DNA of 64,000 nt from Xanthomonas sontii (GTDB taxonomy: Bacteria; Pseudomonadota; Gammaproteobacteria; Xanthomonadales; Xanthomonadaceae): positions 310,001-374,000 of the forward strand of contig NZ_CP132342.1 of the NCBI RefSeq assembly GCF_040529055.1, written 5' to 3'. Within the stretch, counting starts at the first letter, position 1, and the number at the start of each line of letters is the position of its first letter. Positions 5,532 through 19,813 of this stretch are shown here, in pieces. A program made the position numbers and the translations under genes. The notes beneath the pieces were generated by a model. That model worked only from the letters and a program-made list of their open reading frames with translations. It was not told where the DNA came from and searched no databases.

Positions 5532-7302
<1,771 letters not shown>

Positions 7303-7314
7303 CGATCGTCGGCT

Positions 7315-7602
7315 TCAGCCGACGATCGCCAGAACGTCGTCTTCGCGCAGCACCTTGTACTCGACGCCTTCGGCCTTGTAGCTGGAACCGGCGTACTGGC
7401 CGTAGATGACCTTGTCGCCGACCTTCAGCGCCGGGGCGCGCACGCTGCCGTTGTCCAGCGGCTTGCCGGCGCCGACGGCCACAACTTCACCCTTGGTGGA
7501 CTTTTCCTTGGCCGAATCCGGGATCACGATGCCGCCGGCGGAGATTTCGTCGGCTTCGATCGGCTTGACTACGACGCGGTCGTGAAGCGGCTTGATGCTC
7601 AT
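7315..7602 (-). CDS. groES: Co-chaperonin GroES (10 kDa)
   Basis: The 95-residue product is the heptameric lid of the GroEL chamber. It begins [14 protein letters not shown] and contains the mobile-loop segment [14 protein letters not shown] that binds GroEL, and ends with the typical [12 protein letters not shown]. It is the first gene of the groESL operon, with a degenerate CIRCE operator 50 bp upstream. Confidence 0.98.
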
Positions 7603-7651
7603 TGAGTGAGACCTCTTAAGTGATTGATTGGTCTAGGAAAGGCCGGCGATG

Positions 7652-7678
7652 TTAGCACTCGCCCATGACGACTGCCAG
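7652..7678 (-). promoter_or_regulatory. CIRCE-like HrcA operator of groESL
   Basis: On the minus strand the sequence reads CTGGCAGTC-N9-GAGTGCTAA. The second half is a perfect CIRCE arm; the first half matches the consensus TTAGCACTC only in part (about 6 of 9). Position and spacing fit HrcA repression of groESL, which is established in other bacteria. Confidence 0.7.
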
Positions 7679-7718
7679 CAACGCTCGCGAAAAAACCCGG
7701 TAGCGCCGGGATGCGCCT

Positions 7719-7747
7719 GATGTAGTGCCGCGGCCGGGGCTTTCAAG
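7719..7747 (-). promoter_or_regulatory. Possible sigma-32 promoter of groESL
   Basis: The minus strand has CTTGAAA (7741-7747), a good heat-shock -35 element, and a poor -10-like CACTACATC about 13 nt on. The order relative to the CIRCE and groES fits a heat-shock promoter, but the -10 is weak. Confidence 0.35.
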
Positions 7748-7882
7748 GGCGGGAGGCAAAAAATTTTTGCCAGGAACGTGCATTCGGTGGCAAGCAGTGA
7801 CCGAATCCCGTCACAGTGTCACAGAGGCAGGCTAGGCTGAGCGCGGACCCATGGGGGGATCCGTCACCAAAAGGAGTTGTCG

Positions 7883-9661
7883 ATGAAGCCATCCGCCGTT
7901 GCGCTGCCGCTGGCCTGCCTGCTCGCCCTTGCCGGGCCGGCCCAGGCCGCCGTATTCATTAATGAATTGCATTACGACGATGCCACCGCCGCCGGCGACA
8001 CCGGCGAAGGCGTGGAGATCGTCGCCACCGCCGGGGAGAGCCTGAGCGGCTACCGCGTCTACTTGTACAACGGCAGCAACCCGGGGTCGGCGGCCGTCTA
8101 CGCCAACAGCGCGGTGCCGGCCGGCAACCTGGTCAGCTGCGGCGGGCAGGTGCGCATCGCCACCGTCAGCTACGCCAGCAACGGCATCCAGAACGGGCCC
8201 AACGACGGCCTGGCGCTGGTCGACGGCAACGGCAAGGTGGTGCAGTTCCTCAGCTACGAGGGCGCCATCACCGGCGGCGGCGGCCCCGCCGCGGGCATGA
8301 CCAGCCAGAACCTGCCGGTCAGCGAGAGCAACAGCACCCCGGCCGGCACCTCGCTGCAGCTGCGCGGCAACGGCAGCGCCGCGGCCGACTTCAGCTGGAG
8401 CGACAGCGCCACCAGCACCTTCGGCGCCTGCAACAACGGCCAGACCTTCGCCGGCGGCGGCGGCAGCAACGCCGCGCCGACCGTGACCGCCACCACCCCG
8501 ACCCAGGGCGCCACCGACTTCCCCGCCGCCGGCGACCTGGCGGTGACCTTCAGCGAGGCGGTGAGCCTGGCCAGCGGCGCGTTCGGCCTGAGCTGCCAGC
8601 AGTCCGGCACTGTGGCGCTGACCTATCCCAGCAGCGGCACCCAGTTCTCCCTGTCCACCAACACCGCGCTGAAGGCCGGCGAGAGCTGCACCCTGAGCAT
8701 CGTCGCCGCACGCGTGAGCGATGCCGACGGCGCGCATCCGGCGCAGGATCGCAGCGTCGCCTTCAACGTCGCCAGCGGCTCGGGCGGCGGCGGCAACGGC
8801 GCCGGCAGCTACTACTCGCGGGTCAACACCTCCAGCCCCAGCCAGCTGCGCTGCTCGCTGCACGAGACGATCAAGGGCCACACCGTCTATCCGTACAGCA
8901 GCAGCTCCGGCACCGACACCTGGGCCATCCTGGAGATCGCCGACGAGGATCCGAACAACAGCCAGCGCGTCCTCGACGCCTACCGCAACCGCAGCTATGC
9001 CAAGGGCACCGACCGTGCCGGCAGCGGCAGCGGCCTGAAGTACAACCGCGAGCATAGCTGGCCGAACTCGCTGGGCTTCGGCACCTCCACCGGCAACAAG
9101 GGCCTGCCCTACGCGCCCTACACCGACACCCACATGCTGTACCTGACCGACGCCACCTGGAACGCCGACCGCGGCAACAAGCCCTACGCCAAGTGCGACA
9201 GCAACTGCGGCGAGCGCGCCACCGAGGCCAACGCCGGCTTCGGCGGCGGCAGCGGCCGCTACCCGGGCAATTCCAACTGGGTGCGCACCCCGGACGGCAA
9301 CAGCGGCACCTTCGAGGTGTGGGACCACCGCAAGGGCGACATGGCGCGTGCGGTGATGTACATGGCGATCCGCTATGAGGGTGGCGTGGATGCCAAGACC
9401 GGGCAGTCCGAGCCGGACCTGGAACTGACCGACGACCGCAGCAAGATCGTCAAGACCTCGTCCTCGCCGGCCTACATGGGCCTGCTGTCGACCCTGATCG
9501 CGTGGAGCCAGCAGGATCCGCCGGACGACGCCGAGCGCGCCCGCAACGAGGTGATCTACAGCTTCCAGGGCAACCGCAACCCGTTCATCGACCACCCGGA
9601 GTGGGCGACCTCGTCGCTGTTCACCTCGGCCAAGCCGGCCAGCTGCCAGTTGCTCAACTGA
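7883..9661 (+). CDS. Secreted endonuclease I family nuclease with lamin-tail and Ig-like domains
   Basis: A signal peptide (about residues 1-23, ending A-Q-A-A) precedes a lamin-tail-like domain starting VFINELHYDD (about 24-185), a bacterial Ig-like domain (about 196-295, PTVTATTPTQGATDFP) and a C-terminal endonuclease I-type domain (about 305-590) with the motif YNREHSWPNS, whose His is the expected catalytic residue. It would degrade extracellular DNA or RNA. The start at 7883 has AAGGAG six bases upstream. The gene stands alone on the plus strand, with a hairpin after it. Several Cys residues suit disulfides in a secreted protein. Confidence 0.87.
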   Translation: MKPSAVALPLACLLALAGPAQAAVFINELHYDDATAAGDTGEGVEIVATAGESLSGYRVYLYNGSNPGSAAVYANSAVPAGNLVSCGGQVRIATVSYASNGIQNGPNDGLALVDGNGKVVQFLSYEGAITGGGGPAAGMTSQNLPVSESNSTPAGTSLQLRGNGSAAADFSWSDSATSTFGACNNGQTFAGGGGSNAAPTVTATTPTQGATDFPAAGDLAVTFSEAVSLASGAFGLSCQQSGTVALTYPSSGTQFSLSTNTALKAGESCTLSIVAARVSDADGAHPAQDRSVAFNVASGSGGGGNGAGSYYSRVNTSSPSQLRCSLHETIKGHTVYPYSSSSGTDTWAILEIADEDPNNSQRVLDAYRNRSYAKGTDRAGSGSGLKYNREHSWPNSLGFGTSTGNKGLPYAPYTDTHMLYLTDATWNADRGNKPYAKCDSNCGERATEANAGFGGGSGRYPGNSNWVRTPDGNSGTFEVWDHRKGDMARAVMYMAIRYEGGVDAKTGQSEPDLELTDDRSKIVKTSSSPAYMGLLSTLIAWSQQDPPDDAERARNEVIYSFQGNRNPFIDHPEWATSSLFTSAKPASCQLLN

Positions 9662-13277: not shown

Positions 13278-14675
13278 CTAAAACGCCTGCCGCTGCCGCG
13301 CTTCGCCAACACTGCCATTCCCGGTCCGCACCTGCGCCAGCGTCGCCAGCTCCTCGGCCAGGCGCTGCGCGGCGGTGCGCAGTTCCGGCACCGCGGTGAT
13401 CTCCCACAGCACGCCACGCAGCAGCGGCCCGATGCAGTACAGCCCGGCGACCGGATGGCCGCTGCCGTCGCGCACCCGCAGGCGCTCGTCCACCTGCAGC
13501 CCCAGGCCCAGCGGATCGGCCTGCAGCAGGCCGGCGTCGCGCATCGTGGCGACCAGCGGATGGCTGGTGCGGGCGACGTCGGTGTCCAGCCCGGTGGCGC
13601 GGATCAGCACGCCGAAGTCCTCGGTGCGCGCGTTGCTGCTGGCGCGATCGCGGATCACCGCTTCCACCGCGGTTTCGCCCAGCCGCGCGCGCAGCAGGCG
13701 CCCGGCGCGGATGCGCAGCTGGCCCCGCGCCTGCAGTTGCGCCAGCGCGGCCGCCGCGGCCGGCGCCAGCCGATGCCGCGCCGCTTCCCAGTACGGCCGC
13801 AGGTGGCGCAGGAAGCGGGCGCGCGCCGCCGGCGCCAAGCCTTGCCAGAACGGCTGCAGGTGCGGACGCAGCGCATCCACCACGCAGCGCCAGTCCTCCA
13901 CCACCGTGGTCAGTTGGCGCAGGCTGCGCACCAGGCCGCGCAGGTCGTGGCTGCGCAGCGCCTGCACGACGCTGGGCGGCAGGCTCACCGGCGCGCCAGG
14001 CACCGCCAGGTGCGCCTGCGGCGCCAGGCCGCGCCGCGACAGCGCGGTGATCGGGCCGCGGTGTCCGCGCCGACGCAGGGTCAACGCCACATCGGCCATG
14101 GTCAGGCCGGTGCCGACCAGCAACAGCCGCGCCTGCGGCGGCACCTCGTCCAGCACGCCGTCCTGCCACGGCCAACCGATGTAGCGGCGATGCACCGCCA
14201 GGCGCGGGCCGATGCCCGGCAGCGCCGCCGGCGGCAGCGCGCCGATCGCCAGCACCACCACGTCGCTGACGAAATCCTCGCCATTGGCCAGGAACACGCG
14301 GAAACCGTGCGGATCGCGCTCCAGCGCCACCGCCTCCTGCGCCAGCGGCACCACCTCGGTCGCCGACTCCGCCAGGGCGGCCGCCAGGTGCTGCTCCAGG
14401 TACTGGCCGTACTGCAGCCGTGGCAGGAACGCCATGCCCTGCGCCGCATCCAGGTGCAGCGCCGCGGCGAAGCCGCCGGGATCCTGCGGATCCACGCCCA
14501 GGTCCTTGGCGCGCACGTTCAGCAGGTGCTCCGGCCGCGCCGCGCCGTAGGCGACGCCGCGGCCGAAGGTGTCGGCCATGCCGACCAGGGTGATGCGGCT
14601 GGCGGTGCCCTGGCGTGCCAGCGCCGCGGCCAGCACGTTGCCGCAGAATCCTGCGCCGATGATCGCGATTCGCAT
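13278..14675 (-). CDS. FAD/NAD(P)-binding protein (NAD_binding_9 type)
   Basis: The 465-residue product starts with a Rossmann dinucleotide fold, MRIAIIGAGFCGNVLA, and has a second nucleotide-binding segment around LLLVGTGLTMADVALTLRRRG. The layout fits the uncharacterised FAD-NAD(P)-binding family related to hydroxylases and siderophore-type monooxygenases. The start at 14675 puts the GxGxxG motif at residue 7, the usual place. The gene stands alone between REP repeats and the retron island. The substrate is unknown. Confidence 0.8.
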   Translation of the reverse strand: MRIAIIGAGFCGNVLAAALARQGTASRITLVGMADTFGRGVAYGAARPEHLLNVRAKDLGVDPQDPGGFAAALHLDAAQGMAFLPRLQYGQYLEQHLAAALAESATEVVPLAQEAVALERDPHGFRVFLANGEDFVSDVVVLAIGALPPAALPGIGPRLAVHRRYIGWPWQDGVLDEVPPQARLLLVGTGLTMADVALTLRRRGHRGPITALSRRGLAPQAHLAVPGAPVSLPPSVVQALRSHDLRGLVRSLRQLTTVVEDWRCVVDALRPHLQPFWQGLAPAARARFLRHLRPYWEAARHRLAPAAAAALAQLQARGQLRIRAGRLLRARLGETAVEAVIRDRASSNARTEDFGVLIRATGLDTDVARTSHPLVATMRDAGLLQADPLGLGLQVDERLRVRDGSGHPVAGLYCIGPLLRGVLWEITAVPELRTAAQRLAEELATLAQVRTGNGSVGEARQRQAF

Positions 14676-14942
14676 GGCACGCACCTTGGCCGCTCGGGGC
14701 GTCCTTTGTGCCCCGGATGCGGCGCGCGGGTGTAAATCGCCGGTTAATGCGTGCGCTGCGCGGCATGGCGATCGGGCATCAGCAAATGCGCTCGGCACAT
14801 AAGCGATGAGGAGCGCGGAGATAGCGCTGTTCTCTAGCGTCGTCTGCGGCGCACCACCTCTGGCCGACGAGCCGTAGATCTAACAGTTGGACCACTAGAC
14901 CATGACTAGATTGGGACCTCCGCCACCCCTAGATTTTCCCTT

Positions 14943-15845
14943 TTAAATTGGCAGTGCATCCACTTCCACTCCGTATTTAAGTTGCGACAGCCACAAACCA
15001 AATTGCATGGGACTAAGGTGGTAGCCCCTCAGCACGATATCGTTCTTTCTAACTAACGCTTCGGCATCTTCGTGCAATTCCTTCCTACTAGGTGCTCCCT
15101 CGAACGTAATGCCGACGAAGAAGAACTTATCGTCAGTGGCATGCGCAACCAAAACGGGGCCGCCGCTGATCCCACTGAATCCCCAACCATGGTCCGAAGT
15201 AAGCGTAGACCAAAGGATGTAGGTAGGCCTCTCCTGCGTTGGGAAGTCTGTCGCTAGGCTCGCCGACACCCTCGGCATAGGCGCCACCAACTTGCCTTCG
15301 TCCTCGTACTTGTGCGCGTCGGGAAAGCCGAATGCCAACCAAGTCGACTGTATCGTCGTCCATTCCGGTTCGGTCCAGGTATCAAGATCGATCGCCTCAG
15401 CATTACGTTCATCTTGGAACTGTGTCCAAATTTCGGTAACGTCCGCGATTGCGATATCCGGCCGTTCCGCGTTTTTTCTATCTAGCGCGGTTAGCGCCTC
15501 CTCGTTGTCGACATCTGCTGAGTCGGGGAAATCTCGGCAACTCTGGAAGCACCACCGATAGGTTCCTTGTCGCGTATACCGGCCGAGCTGGTAAATACTC
15601 CTGCCGGAGTGGAGCGTCGGTACGATGTGTCGATTGTTCCTGACACTGGCGCTGAAGAAGGCTGACAGGACATGGTGGCAAGTCACGACGTAGAAGCGTG
15701 ACTGGAACTTCACGAACGTCGCCGTAGCGCTGGTTACCGAAGTGTCGTGACCGCTATCCAGTAACAATCCGTTGCCAAATAGCGGCGCGCAGAATCGGTG
15801 GACACGTCGATCAATTTCTTTGCTGGTCGCAGCAATAGGAATCAT
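14943..15845 (-). CDS. Trypsin-like serine peptidase, divergent from the retron
   Basis: The 300-residue product has a trypsin-type catalytic triad in order: His in VVTCHHVLSA (about residue 56-57), Asp in PDIAIADV (about 129) and Ser in GISGGP (about 231). There is no signal peptide, so it should act in the cytoplasm. It is clearly AT-richer than the flanking genes and runs divergently from the retron reverse transcriptase, which itself carries a second trypsin-like domain. The pairing suggests both belong to one imported defence cassette, but I cannot show that this gene is needed by the retron. The target protein is unknown. Confidence 0.8.
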   Translation of the reverse strand: MIPIAATSKEIDRRVHRFCAPLFGNGLLLDSGHDTSVTSATATFVKFQSRFYVVTCHHVLSAFFSASVRNNRHIVPTLHSGRSIYQLGRYTRQGTYRWCFQSCRDFPDSADVDNEEALTALDRKNAERPDIAIADVTEIWTQFQDERNAEAIDLDTWTEPEWTTIQSTWLAFGFPDAHKYEDEGKLVAPMPRVSASLATDFPTQERPTYILWSTLTSDHGWGFSGISGGPVLVAHATDDKFFFVGITFEGAPSRKELHEDAEALVRKNDIVLRGYHLSPMQFGLWLSQLKYGVEVDALPI

Positions 15846-15976
15846 CCTGGTCGATCCTTCTCTTGATCATCATTCTAGAATCCTAGTCCTTGCCAGGCCC
15901 GTTGTCGCCCAGCCCTACTCCCTCCCGGGCAGGATCTCGGCCATCGAATCCATCTGCTGAATTGCAGCAAACACCA

Positions 15977-16005
15977 TTGAACATCCTTAGGGGTTCAGGT
16001 AATGT
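15977..16005 (+). promoter_or_regulatory. Candidate promoter of the retron ncRNA
   Basis: TTGAAC (15977-15982) and TAATGT (16000-16005) are separated by 17 bp. A start about 7 nt after the -10 falls at 16012, the first base of the a1 repeat. The spacer contains the inverted repeat TGAAC-N10-GTTCA (15978-15997), a possible operator. Confidence 0.5.
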
Positions 16006-16011
16006 CCATCC

Positions 16012-16148
16012 ATGGCGCACCTCACCAGGTGTTTAACCTCCGTCTACTGATTGAGACGGAATTCCAAAGTTAGCTGATGCCGCTGTGCGTACGTTACGTT
16101 ATGCGCGATGTCGCACGTTGTAAGGGTGAAAACGGTGAGGTGCGCCAT
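16012..16148 (+). ncRNA. Retron msr-msd non-coding RNA
   Basis: The ends are a perfect 15-bp inverted repeat, ATGGCGCACCTCACC (16012-16026) and its complement (16134-16148), matching the a1/a2 repeats that fold retron ncRNA. Inside, two msr-like stem-loops follow a1: AGGT/ACCT (16027-16039) and TCCGTCT/AGACGGA (16039-16060). An msd-like hairpin with GTGCG/CGCAC arms spans about 16085-16116. The reverse transcriptase starts 2 nt after a2. The branching G and exact msr/msd limits cannot be set by eye. The a2 arm includes the GGTGAGG ribosome binding site of the next gene. Confidence 0.82.
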
Positions 16149-16150
16149 AC

Positions 16151-17803
16151 ATGGATATTGAGAGCCTGCGATGCGTTCACAGCTATGACTCTCTGGGAGC
16201 TCTATTTGGGGTTCCTGGCTCTACACTGAAGAACAACCTATACAAGTCCCGGGGGTACACGGACTTCACCATTCCTAAGAAGTCCGGCGGCGTTCGCTTG
16301 ATCTCCGCGCCTGGCCGTCTAAGGAAGAAGCTTCAACACAAGCTTTTGCCTGTGTTGTACAGCGCCTATAAAATGGGGCCTAACGTGCATGGCTTCGCTA
16401 AAGGCCGAAATGTAAGGACTAATGCACTGCCGCACGCTACCAGAAAGGTAGTTATAAATTTCGACCTTAAAGACTTTTTCTCCTCCATCAGCTTCCAACG
16501 GATCCGCGGCGTCTTTCTCGGAACTCCACTGCGACTCGACTGGTCGGTTGCCAACATTCTTGCGCAGATCTGTTCACTGGATGGCGTGATGCCCGCTGGC
16601 GCACCAACTTCACCAGTGCTTTCGAACATTATTTGCGCAAAGCTTGATAAGAGACTTTCCGCATTGGCAGCCCGGCTTGGTGGTTCTTACACACGCTACG
16701 CTGACGACCTTACTTTCTCGTTCGATAGGCCACTTACTCAACTTCGTAGCGTGGCCATTTTAGACGATGAAGGGAAACCCCTGGTCGGCGCATCAATTTC
16801 AGAAATTGTGACTTCGGAGGGATTTTCCATAAACATGGAAAAGCTCCGAATCGCCACCAAGGGAAGCAGGAAGACAGTCACTGGACTCGTTGTAAATGAA
16901 AAGGTCAATGTCAAACGCCCTTGGTACTTTGCGCTAGAGTCTACGATATACGCAATGGAGAAGTTTGGAGTTGATGAAGTCGCTGCTCAGAAATTTCCTG
17001 AGGAGAAAACTCCAGGAGTCGCGCCAGCTAGGCTGCTTCGACAGATTCACGGAAAAGTTTCGTACCTCAGTATGGTACGCGGCAAAGGAGATTGGCTTGC
17101 TTCAGATATCGCCCACCGCTTCAACAAGCTTCACGAAACTTTGCAGTTGAGAGTGCCTAGTGTAGAGCTGATCAGTCAACTAGTTCGTCGGGCGCGGGGA
17201 GTTCACATCGTCAACGCCAGTACTGATCCGCTGTTTGTATTCGATCTAGGCCAAAGCCAAGGGACAGCATTCACCACTTCCTCTGGAATAATGGTGACCG
17301 CCGCTCACGTCGTAGAGCGTGACGACACAAAAACTATTCTTCCTTTTGTTTATGTCATGAACGAACGAAGACTGGCCTTAGTTATTTGTGACGTTATTGC
17401 AATAGATTGGAATAGAGATATTGCCCTACTTCGCGTACGCAATGATAAACACCGACTGGATTTGGAGCGCTCACGTTACAGGCTGGGCCGAGACCCCAAC
17501 CAGGGTGACAATCTAGTTACCGTAGGCTATCCAGATTATACGCGGGGCGAGCATGCCACAGCTGTGAACTCACCAGTCACGAGAGTATTTAAGAATAAGG
17601 CGACATCTGGCGCTCATGATATAAGAAAAGCCAGGGTGGACGGCCCCATCCAGAGCGGAATGAGCGGCGGACCCGCACTGGACTCGAAGTTTGAGGTTCG
17701 TGGAGTTGTACACAAGGGGGTTCTTAATCCTGGAGGCGTAGCAGAGATTATTGCTATAAGCGAAGTCCTCCGAGTCGCGCAAGCCAACGGACTGTCAGTC
17801 TGA
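16151..17803 (+). CDS. Retron reverse transcriptase fused to a trypsin-like peptidase
   Basis: Residues 1 to about 340 form a retron-type reverse transcriptase: the retron signature NAxxH (NALPH, 91-95), domain A FDLKDFF (D105), the catalytic YADD (183-186), and the region-Y VTG (243-245). Residues about 360-550 form a trypsin-like domain with H386 (VTAAHVV), D423 (RDIALL) and S505 (GMSGGP), so the triad is intact. The RT would make a branched RNA-DNA hybrid from the upstream ncRNA; by analogy with known retrons the fused peptidase is the toxic or signalling effector released when phage disturbs the hybrid. That role is inference. Base composition is far lower in GC than neighbouring genes, which marks transfer. 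Confidence 0.92.
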   Translation: MDIESLRCVHSYDSLGALFGVPGSTLKNNLYKSRGYTDFTIPKKSGGVRLISAPGRLRKKLQHKLLPVLYSAYKMGPNVHGFAKGRNVRTNALPHATRKVVINFDLKDFFSSISFQRIRGVFLGTPLRLDWSVANILAQICSLDGVMPAGAPTSPVLSNIICAKLDKRLSALAARLGGSYTRYADDLTFSFDRPLTQLRSVAILDDEGKPLVGASISEIVTSEGFSINMEKLRIATKGSRKTVTGLVVNEKVNVKRPWYFALESTIYAMEKFGVDEVAAQKFPEEKTPGVAPARLLRQIHGKVSYLSMVRGKGDWLASDIAHRFNKLHETLQLRVPSVELISQLVRRARGVHIVNASTDPLFVFDLGQSQGTAFTTSSGIMVTAAHVVERDDTKTILPFVYVMNERRLALVICDVIAIDWNRDIALLRVRNDKHRLDLERSRYRLGRDPNQGDNLVTVGYPDYTRGEHATAVNSPVTRVFKNKATSGAHDIRKARVDGPIQSGMSGGPALDSKFEVRGVVHKGVLNPGGVAEIIAISEVLRVAQANGLSV

Positions 17804-17815
17804 TCGTTAGGCCTG

Positions 17816-17849
17816 GCGGAAGGCGCCAATCCGAACCGGCGCCTTCCGC
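17816..17849. terminator. Hairpin at the convergent end of retron and GH84 genes
   Basis: A perfect 12-bp stem (GCGGAAGGCGCC/GGCGCCTTCCGC, loop of 10) lies between the retron RT stop and the stop codon of the convergent hexosaminidase gene. There is no T run on either side. Confidence 0.5.
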
Positions 17850-19813
17850 TAACGCGCCGGCGGACGCTGCACCAGGCCGGGCGCGTCGGCGACGAAGGTG
17901 TCGAGCACGCCGTCGGCGACCTTGACCGGGCCGCCGAAGCGGGTCGCGCCGGGAATGGAGGGAATCGCCTCGGCCTGCGCGGCGAGCTGCCCGGCGGTGG
18001 CGAAGGCCTGCTCGCCCGCCGGATCGCCGGCCAGCGCCTGGTTCAGCCCGTCCACGCTCAGGCGCAGCGCGCGGCCCCACAGCGCGGTCGCGTCCAGCCA
18101 TGGCGCTGCCTCGGCCACGAATGCGCCGGTGGTGGCGCCGGCACGGATGCGCTGCGGTGCCGCCACCAGGTCGTCGGCCGCCTGGCCCAGCGCGGCCAGC
18201 GCGGCCAGCGCCGCAGTGCGAGCGGCCGGATCGCCGTCGGCCAGCGCGTCGCGGGCGGCGTCGATCAGCACCTTGAGCCGCGGCGCCTGCGGCTGCCAGG
18301 GCAGATGGCCGAAAGTCGGTGCCAGGTGCTGGGTGTCGAAGAAGGTCAGCAGCGCGTCGGCGACCTGCGCATCGCCGTCGGCCAGGTCGCGCGCGGCCGC
18401 GCGCCAGGTGCGCTGTGCGTCGTAGCCGCGGTCGTTCCAGGCGAAGGCGAGCAGCCCGGCCACCGCCGGCCGGCTGGCCACTTCCTGGTTCATCGGGTTG
18501 GACACGATACCGCTCAGCTCCGTCGACAGCCCGGCCTGGCGGCGGTCGTACGGCGCCAGCAGCAGGCGCCCGGCGGTCTCGGCGAAGTCGTTGACCGGAT
18601 AGTTGTCCCACAGCAGGGTCTTGCGCCCGAACGCCTTGGTGGCGTTCTTCGCGTCGCTCACCGAGATCGACGCCGGAACCACGTCGGTGCCGGTCCACTG
18701 CACCACCACGCGCGGATCCAGCGCCTTGCGCAGCGTCGCCTTGTACGGCGATTCGGTGACGTTGTAGTACTCGGTCGGCACCATGATCAGCGCGCCATGG
18801 CAGGCCGCGGCGATGTCCGCCTGCACCGCGTTGAGCAGCCGCGCCTGCGCGGTGGCCGCGGCCTGCTCGCCGGCCGGGCCGAATGCGGTGGCGTCGCCGG
18901 GGCAGTTCCACTTGGTGTATTCGATGTCGTCGAAGGCGATGTAGAAGCTGCGCACGCCGCGCGCGCGCAGCGCGGCGAACTTGCGCCGGATCGCCTGCAG
19001 GTCGGCCGCATCGCTGTAGCAGATCGACGGCCCCGGCGAGAGCGCGTAGACGAAATTGATGTGCTCGCGGTTGGCGACCGCGGCCAGCTTGCCCAGCGCC
19101 GCCAGCGTAGCGGCCGGGTACGGCGCGCGCCAGCGATCGCGCGCGAACACGTCGTCCTTGGGGCTGTAGATGTAGGTGTTGGCCTTGAACCGCGCCAGGA
19201 ACGCCAGGTGCGCGGCGCGCTCGTCCATGCTCCAGGGCTTGCCGTAAAAACCCTCGATCGTGCCGCGCACCGGCATCGCCGGCGCGTCGGTCACCGCCAC
19301 CGAGGCGATGCGTCCGGGCGCGACCAGTTGCCGGAAGGTCTGCGCCGCGTGGTACAGGCCGGCGCCGTCGCGGCCGGCCAGCACGATCCGCGTGGCACCG
19401 CCGCTGGCCACGCTGCCCAGCGCATAGCCTTCCGCGCGTTCCGGCACGTCCAGGTCGACGGCGGCCAGCGCATCGCGCACCGGCGCCGCGTCGACGGTGC
19501 CGAGCACCACCGACACCGCCTGCGGGTCGTGCGGCAGCGTGCTGGCGCGGCGGATGCGGGAAACGCCGGCCTCGCGCAACACCGCGCGCACCAGCGTGTC
19601 GGTGGCCGGGTCGGCCTTGCCGGCCTGCACCAGCACCACCGACGGCCCCAGCGGCAGCTCCGGCCCGAGCAGGCGCAGCGCGGTCGGCGTCGGGTACACC
19701 GCCGGCAGGGTGGCCGGCCCCGCCGCCAGCGCGGGCGCGGCCGCCCCGGCCAGCAGAGCGAACGCCAGGATGTGGCGGCCAAGGCCGCAACGGCCAATAC
19801 GCTCGGTTCGCAT
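17849..19813 (-). CDS. GH84 beta-N-acetylglucosaminidase (O-GlcNAcase/hyaluronidase type), exported
   Basis: The 654-residue product has an N-terminal signal peptide (ends about A-L-A-A), a GH20b-like N-terminal domain, and a GH84 catalytic domain that begins with VRGTIEGFYGKPWS (about residue 182). The catalytic aspartate pair is in AFDDIEYTKW (D295, D296). It would release N-acetylglucosamine from glycans in the periplasm or outside the cell by substrate-assisted catalysis. The start at 19813 has a GAGGG sequence about 9 nt upstream and opens on the signal peptide. A palindrome 38 bp upstream suggests regulation by a GntR-type repressor linked to amino-sugar use. Confidence 0.9.
   Translation of the reverse strand: MRTERIGRCGLGRHILAFALLAGAAAPALAAGPATLPAVYPTPTALRLLGPELPLGPSVVLVQAGKADPATDTLVRAVLREAGVSRIRRASTLPHDPQAVSVVLGTVDAAPVRDALAAVDLDVPERAEGYALGSVASGGATRIVLAGRDGAGLYHAAQTFRQLVAPGRIASVAVTDAPAMPVRGTIEGFYGKPWSMDERAAHLAFLARFKANTYIYSPKDDVFARDRWRAPYPAATLAALGKLAAVANREHINFVYALSPGPSICYSDAADLQAIRRKFAALRARGVRSFYIAFDDIEYTKWNCPGDATAFGPAGEQAAATAQARLLNAVQADIAAACHGALIMVPTEYYNVTESPYKATLRKALDPRVVVQWTGTDVVPASISVSDAKNATKAFGRKTLLWDNYPVNDFAETAGRLLLAPYDRRQAGLSTELSGIVSNPMNQEVASRPAVAGLLAFAWNDRGYDAQRTWRAAARDLADGDAQVADALLTFFDTQHLAPTFGHLPWQPQAPRLKVLIDAARDALADGDPAARTAALAALAALGQAADDLVAAPQRIRAGATTGAFVAEAAPWLDATALWGRALRLSVDGLNQALAGDPAGEQAFATAGQLAAQAEAIPSIPGATRFGGPVKVADGVLDTFVADAPGLVQRPPAR

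Follow-up and report, generated by a model that had tools for sequence, protein, structure and literature searches.

A low-GC island of Xanthomonas sontii with the hallmarks of a type XI retron, a reverse transcriptase fused to a trypsin-like protease

According to the abstract of PMC12548924, the reverse transcriptase (RT), noncoding RNA (ncRNA) and reverse-transcribed DNA (RT-DNA) of retrons keep a toxic effector sequestered, and infection by a phage triggers it. Passages of PMC12405507 describe the retron Eco2 as a self-inhibitory trimer of RT and multicopy single-stranded DNA (msDNA) that is activated in infection, and give as effector activities NAD+ hydrolysis in Eco1, membrane damage in Eco6 and RNase activity in Eco2. 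Type XI, catalogued in PADLOC 2.0 as the single gene RT-Protease_XI, is little studied. A literature search that covered few subscription papers found no experiments, mechanism or structure for type XI retrons: a passage of PMC11811056, which holds the string RetronXI, concerns Retron_XII, PMC12548924 contains no protease words, and PMC13405049 has one such mention, of a reagent. Here we describe a locus of Xanthomonas sontii that is, judging by its sequence, almost certainly a type XI retron. It lies in a stretch of 64,000 nt (the window), positions 310001-374000 of the assembly's single 5,019,584-bp contig. The type reportedly takes its name from the scheme of Mestre et al. 2020.

An earlier reading of the window from its letters (the sequence-only reading) had already proposed a retron here, and this identity is upheld by profile matches, including those of the RT part taken by itself, by a conserved ncRNA and by an invariant catalytic triad. 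Its statement that peptidase-fused retron RTs are known from surveys agrees with the existence of the PADLOC family RT-Protease_XI. The fusion gene and its main sites are the following, with positions counted in the window.

16151-17803, plus strand: RT-protease fusion of 550 aa, matching type XI retrons
16421-16435, plus strand: NAxxH motif, aa 91-95
16697-16708, plus strand: YADD motif, aa 183-186, RT active site
17306-17308, plus strand: catalytic His386 of the protease
17417-17419, plus strand: catalytic Asp423 of the protease
17663-17665, plus strand: catalytic Ser505 of the protease

Searched against retron collections, as proposed with the sequence-only reading, the RT matches RT-Protease_XI best and by a wide margin. 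Both PADLOC models of this family match almost full length (E-values 2.6e-145 and 3.1e-144), and the runner-up is RT-TIR_XII (1e-96). The RT part alone gives the same order: type XI (375 bits, E 2e-112), then XII (324 bits), then I-C (294 bits). RVT_1 and Trypsin_2 of Pfam both match the fusion protein above cut-off. We aligned the window protein with 34 homologues (35 rows), taken from the 120 listed of 7,045 in all. N91, H95, Y183, A184, D185, D186, T244, H386, D423 and S505 are invariant in all 35 rows, so that the fused trypsin-like domain with an intact triad stands as it was first described. The same is true of the retron-type RT motifs NAxxH, YADD and VTG; the last lies at aa 243-245, with V243 and G245 nearly invariant.

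The AlphaFold model of the fusion protein has a mean predicted local distance difference test score (pLDDT) of 91.1 and a predicted template modelling score (pTM) of 0.81. Its RT part finds retron Eco2 and other retron RTs as best structural matches in the PDB, and its C-terminus finds Deg, HtrA-type and Rv3671c proteases. The closest solved chain to the fusion is retron Eco2, and no single chain in a PDB sequence search matched both domains. Among the defence proteases of PADLOC, the protease part matches LmuA (4.5e-10), HamA (1.2e-7) and Avs1b (4.5e-5). The residues that precede S505 resemble HtrA proteases more than trypsin proper; for this reason the enzyme may cut after aliphatic residues, which is a guess from family knowledge.

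Directly upstream of the fusion gene is the predicted retron ncRNA, with its inverted repeat (a1/a2).

16011-16150, plus strand: retron ncRNA (msr-msd) of about 140 nt, bounds taken from a covariance model
16012-16026, plus strand: a1 arm, perfect over 15 bp (extended arm 16001-16026)
16134-16148, plus strand: a2 arm, perfect over 15 bp, right before the RT start codon (extended arm 16134-16159)

The perfect 15-bp repeat claimed in the sequence-only reading is present, and none of 500 mononucleotide shuffles of 14600-17900 contained such a repeat with an arm spacing of 60-200 nt. When perfection is not demanded, the arms reach 26 nt at 88% match. The msr-like stem-loops also hold up, since the fold of 15980-16180 has a z-score of -6.06 relative to 200 dinucleotide shuffles. 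The ncRNA is kept alongside the RT in two viral contigs, L076 and L077, where the RT is 76% identical, and in genome G604 (locus L072, RT 49% identical); a pattern search of viral contigs returned only two records, both already known. When the four sequences are aligned, 97.8% of the cells pair, as compared with 29-49% when the partners are slid. Double-sided changes occur in 5 of the 45 pairs, a number that none of 500 shuffles reached.

Loci with otherwise dissimilar RNA sequences show the a1/a2 layout as well. We searched for an inverted repeat upstream of 21 fused entries representing 16 distinct loci, each compared with 20 mononucleotide shuffles; "fused" here means that the alignment begins ahead of residue 60 and extends beyond residue 500. 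The repeat exceeds all 20 shuffles in 13 of the 16 distinct loci. In these 13, its span is 120-161 nt; the end of a2 falls anywhere from 47 nt upstream of the estimated RT start to 10 nt downstream of it.

Several observations weigh against the retron reading. In 3 of the 16 loci, the repeat is not above the shuffles (L079 and L107 tie, and L085 falls below). The covariation comes from four sequences, and it constitutes evidence from one lineage, because all five double-sided changes are in L072. A further measure, that of additional pair types, is matched by 31 of 500 shuffles. The region has no Rfam match at gathering thresholds. In the covariance-model scan that the sequence-only reading suggested, the model (R1), built from the four sequences, finds those four by construction, among them the conserved copies in L076, L077 and L072, together with weak opposite-strand images. 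Beyond these sources, it finds one weak match (L075, positions 410-555, 19.2 bits, E 0.015), and 20 of 27 entries have none at E <= 1. In L075, which is the same locus as L028, the RT alignment begins with residue 12 at position 598.

An alternative is that the RT-protease acts without msDNA, in the manner of a defence-associated RT (DRT), and that the upstream RNA merely regulates the gene. The a2 arm sits on the likely ribosome-binding site, and the hairpin could thereby regulate translation. However, the RT scores far better against retron families than against DRT profiles (Drt2 E 4e-9, Drt3a 1.1e-5), and the a1/a2 layout is found with unlike RNAs. We therefore consider this explanation highly improbable and continue to treat the locus as a retron.

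The a2 arm includes a Shine-Dalgarno-like GGTGAGG shortly before the RT start codon (within 16134-16153). Given this location, folding of the ncRNA might also restrain translation of the RT, which would be a form of autoregulation.

The retron lies in an island that differs from its surroundings in composition.

about 14805-17823, no strand: low-GC island (edges placed to within some 10-20 nt), without a counterpart at the site in four congeners

Its guanine-plus-cytosine (GC) content is 52.2%, as compared with 70.6% in the rest of the window, and the lowest value among 220 segments of 3,019 nt outside the island is 65.3%; the steep drop in GC that was noticed at first is therefore real. The range first assigned to the locus, 14943-17803, does contain the features attributed to it, but it opens with the stop codon of another gene, which was left unmentioned, and the island extends beyond it on both sides. 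The island has two divergent open reading frames (ORFs): that of the 550-aa fusion on the plus strand and one of 300 aa on the minus strand (14943-15845), which encodes a second protease. This second gene, like the relationship to copies carried by prophages, is considered below and goes beyond the sequence-only reading.

We compared the right flank of the island with 12 congeners. In four of them (G003, G011, G005 and G008; loci L053-L056), both flanks are matched and the island is missing, with 39, 422, 193 and 21 bp between the flanks, respectively. The genes flanking the island, described as housekeeping genes in the sequence-only reading, are conserved in these four. Another four (L057-L060) are uninformative as to an empty site, with the left flank unmatched or matched over 52-54 bp only, as are four further congeners without a real match to the right flank. 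In L054 and L055, the intergenic site of the island is occupied by different sequence (422 and 193 bp, respectively), and the site may for this reason be a variable spot.

The ends of the island (14781-14850 and 17791-17860) have no common direct repeat of at least 6 nt. At its right edge (17816-17849), just beyond the end of the minus-strand flanking gene, is a perfect inverted repeat, with arms of 12 bp and a loop of 10 nt, that is perhaps a terminator. Scans for promoters and terminators gave counts no higher than in shuffled sequences, and Rfam at gathering thresholds found two tRNAs only in the window. Taken on its sequence features, the island is probably foreign and horizontally acquired.

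The closest fusion relatives whose DNA we examined are on viral contigs. One of them, L077, is a viral record of 57.7 kb in which a terminase large subunit is encoded 3.6 kb downstream of the retron. The fused form is present in 11 of the best 80 of 376 viral loci. Since copies occur on viral contigs, type XI retrons can travel as prophage cargo, and it is probably from cargo of this type that the island derives.

In the class-level search, 18 of 369 genomes match the XI profile at E <= 1e-40, and three do so over almost the whole profile (G000, G182 and G094). The family-level search gave RT matches at E <= 1e-30 in 8 of 395 genomes, with both domains in three (G000, G604 and G470). Matches to the RT part only were excluded from the type XI counts in both searches. 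Among 60 relatives, 18 have some match at E <= 0.001, and both domains occur in the genome's own entry only. By tblastn, the RT matched 421 plasmid records, 4 of which are covered over at least 80% (29-34% identity), and 41 phage records, 1 of which is covered to this extent. A search for a recurring partner gene near type XI RTs (ORFs of at least 60 aa within 5 kb, at 16 loci, with short flanks in L075, L076, L078, L082 and L107) showed that only pairs of related prophages share genes.

An anti-phage role of the locus is probable, and only slightly less so is a retron that uses the protease as its effector. The ncRNA, the RT, the intact active-site residues and the island with its empty sites are read from the sequence; every step after the ncRNA we infer. 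The RT would use the msd portion of the ncRNA as the template for msDNA, and the resulting RT-msDNA particle would hold the protease in check. Once a phage function attacked or displaced the msDNA, the protease would be free to cut one or more proteins and so stop the infected cell or the phage. This release of the effector has, in our view, somewhat better than even chances. Its triggering by damage to the RNA-DNA hybrid, as first proposed, fits both the general picture of retrons and a protease domain of the defence type. In the flanks examined, type XI RTs have no recurrent partner gene, so the protease probably acts on a phage product or on one whose gene lies elsewhere in the cell. The kinship of the protease with LmuA, HamA and Avs1b suggests that it is a specific cutter.

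The same kinship allows a different role, in which the protease would not be a broad toxin but would activate a dormant nuclease or other proenzyme encoded elsewhere by a specific cut, as in Hachiman and AVAST. In these two systems, according to passages of PMC12799240, a pro-nuclease of the metallo-beta-lactamase (MBL) type is cut, by HamA after isoleucines, and it is the profiles of such proteases that the fused domain matches. However, the nuclease gene of Hachiman and AVAST adjoins the protease gene, whereas the two genes of the island, to which this comparison was confined, match no MBL family, and the flanks examined at 16 type XI loci have no common neighbour. A specific activator is thus rather unlikely, and we retain release of a protease effector as the preferred mechanism.

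The second gene of the island belongs to a different protease family.

14943-15845, minus strand: standalone trypsin-like protease of 300 aa

The family consists of 78 proteins at E <= 0.001, of which 27 were aligned with the window protein (28 rows). The triad is invariant in all rows: TCHHV (H57/H58), D130, and S227 within GxSGGP. The structural model is trypsin-like (pLDDT 87.4), with a Foldseek match to a serine protease (E 6.1e-6, TM-score 0.41), and Trypsin_2 of Pfam falls below cut-off (E 0.0038). NCBIfam has no match for this protein, and a sequence search with the 28-row profile brought up no credible relative of solved structure (best E 0.47). In PADLOC, LmuA is matched by 20 of the 28 rows, along with single weak matches to other profiles. 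One entry, P0182 (196 aa), diverges partway from the family sequence and is apparently a broken or misread copy that arose via a frameshift.

We considered the standalone protease as a regular partner of the retron and dropped this idea, as the two genes are found apart elsewhere. The standalone family is present in 3 of 390 genomes of the taxonomic family and in 1 of 369 of the class, the latter being the genome described here. Among the three, the fused RT was seen in the own genome only, and G004 has no RT match at E <= 1e-30. L021-L025 all have the standalone protease and no RT match in the flanks examined, two of which are limited by contig ends. In the whole genomes of these five, four match the RT part or the protease part to some extent and none matches across both domains; the best match (1.3e-44, residues 30-251) is in a Comamonas genome. 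A viral record of 36 kb (L156) has the standalone protease without the RT, and the records of L076 (merely 4.4 kb) and L077 have the RT without the standalone protease. A tblastn search with the standalone protease found none in plasmids or phages.

It could be asked whether the two proteases of the island cooperate, for example in a cascade in which the RT-fused one activates the standalone one. Their genes are adjacent and divergent, and both match the LmuA profile. However, the two genes were seen together in the window only, and the separate occurrences in L021-L025 (within the flanks examined), L156, G004, L076 and L077 make such cooperation very unlikely. The standalone protease is probably not part of the retron, and is most likely an independent defence-island gene. 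Its unnamed family, whose members repeatedly neighbour defence genes or mobile elements, is by itself a candidate for a defence role.

Neighbours of this family elsewhere include defence genes: L156 has an Eco29kI restriction-modification system, L023 has Septu PtuAB, L024 has PDC-S52 immediately upstream of the protease, and L167 has, at a distance of 5.7 kb, an AriAB-like ATPase (E 2.4e-44). Of five neighbours scanned in L021, one has weak matches only (8.5e-5 and 6.2e-4); three scanned neighbours in L025 and two integrases in L022 have no defence match. These scans took in selected genes, with no baseline frequency of defence genes for comparison.

In L156 (6967-8265, minus strand) and L167 (8641-9939, minus strand), a prophage and a congener, the protease gene is convergent with a gene for a 432-aa protein (92% identical between the two). 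All 19 aligned rows of its family share R360, N361 and H365, which we take to be the Rx4H form of HEPN RNases. One member (P0306) is named Apea-like HEPN, and Pfam and PDB searches with the 432-aa protein found nothing. The window has no such HEPN-like gene. In L023 of Comamonas composti, an unrelated 304-aa gene (7074-7988, minus strand) is convergent with the protease; its RSELVH stretch may represent a further HEPN-type motif, and the protein has no Pfam or PADLOC match.

A more far-reaching idea is that type XI retrons are initiator-proteases. Loss of msDNA would let a specific protease switch on an unlinked host proenzyme, in a proteolytic immune relay tied to reverse transcription, and the neighbouring family would be an uncatalogued defence protease that pairs elsewhere with HEPN-like proteins. 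We consider this improbable.

The locus is compact and intact, with one ncRNA, whose bounds are comparatively supported, and one gene, and it could be transferred whole to a laboratory strain. What the retron protease cuts, and what unlocks it, thereby becomes directly testable for an effector class that is little explored. The adjoining standalone protease family is a candidate for separate defence biology.

Among known systems, type IX and other retrons with a separate effector gene differ from this locus, and its divergent protease gene is not common to other type XI loci. The trypsin-MBL nuclease pairs of Hachiman, AVAST and Lamassu likewise have a defence protein with a fused trypsin-like domain of related profile; according to passages of PMC12799240, their protease is N-terminal and a pro-nuclease gene is adjacent, whereas here the protease is C-terminal and the island has no such gene. 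RT-TIR retrons (type XII) are likewise single-gene fusions and give the next best RT profile, but their effector is a TIR domain rather than a protease. Retron Eco2 (Ec67, type I-C), an RT-Toprim fusion, also unites RT and effector in one protein and is the closest solved structure; its effector is a Toprim RNase in the relevant passages of PMC12405507, and here it is a serine protease. From type XI itself (RT-Protease_XI) we found no difference, apart from the unrelated protease gene that adjoins here: the locus has the same single gene for an RT with a C-terminal trypsin-like protease, a near-full profile match and an upstream ncRNA.

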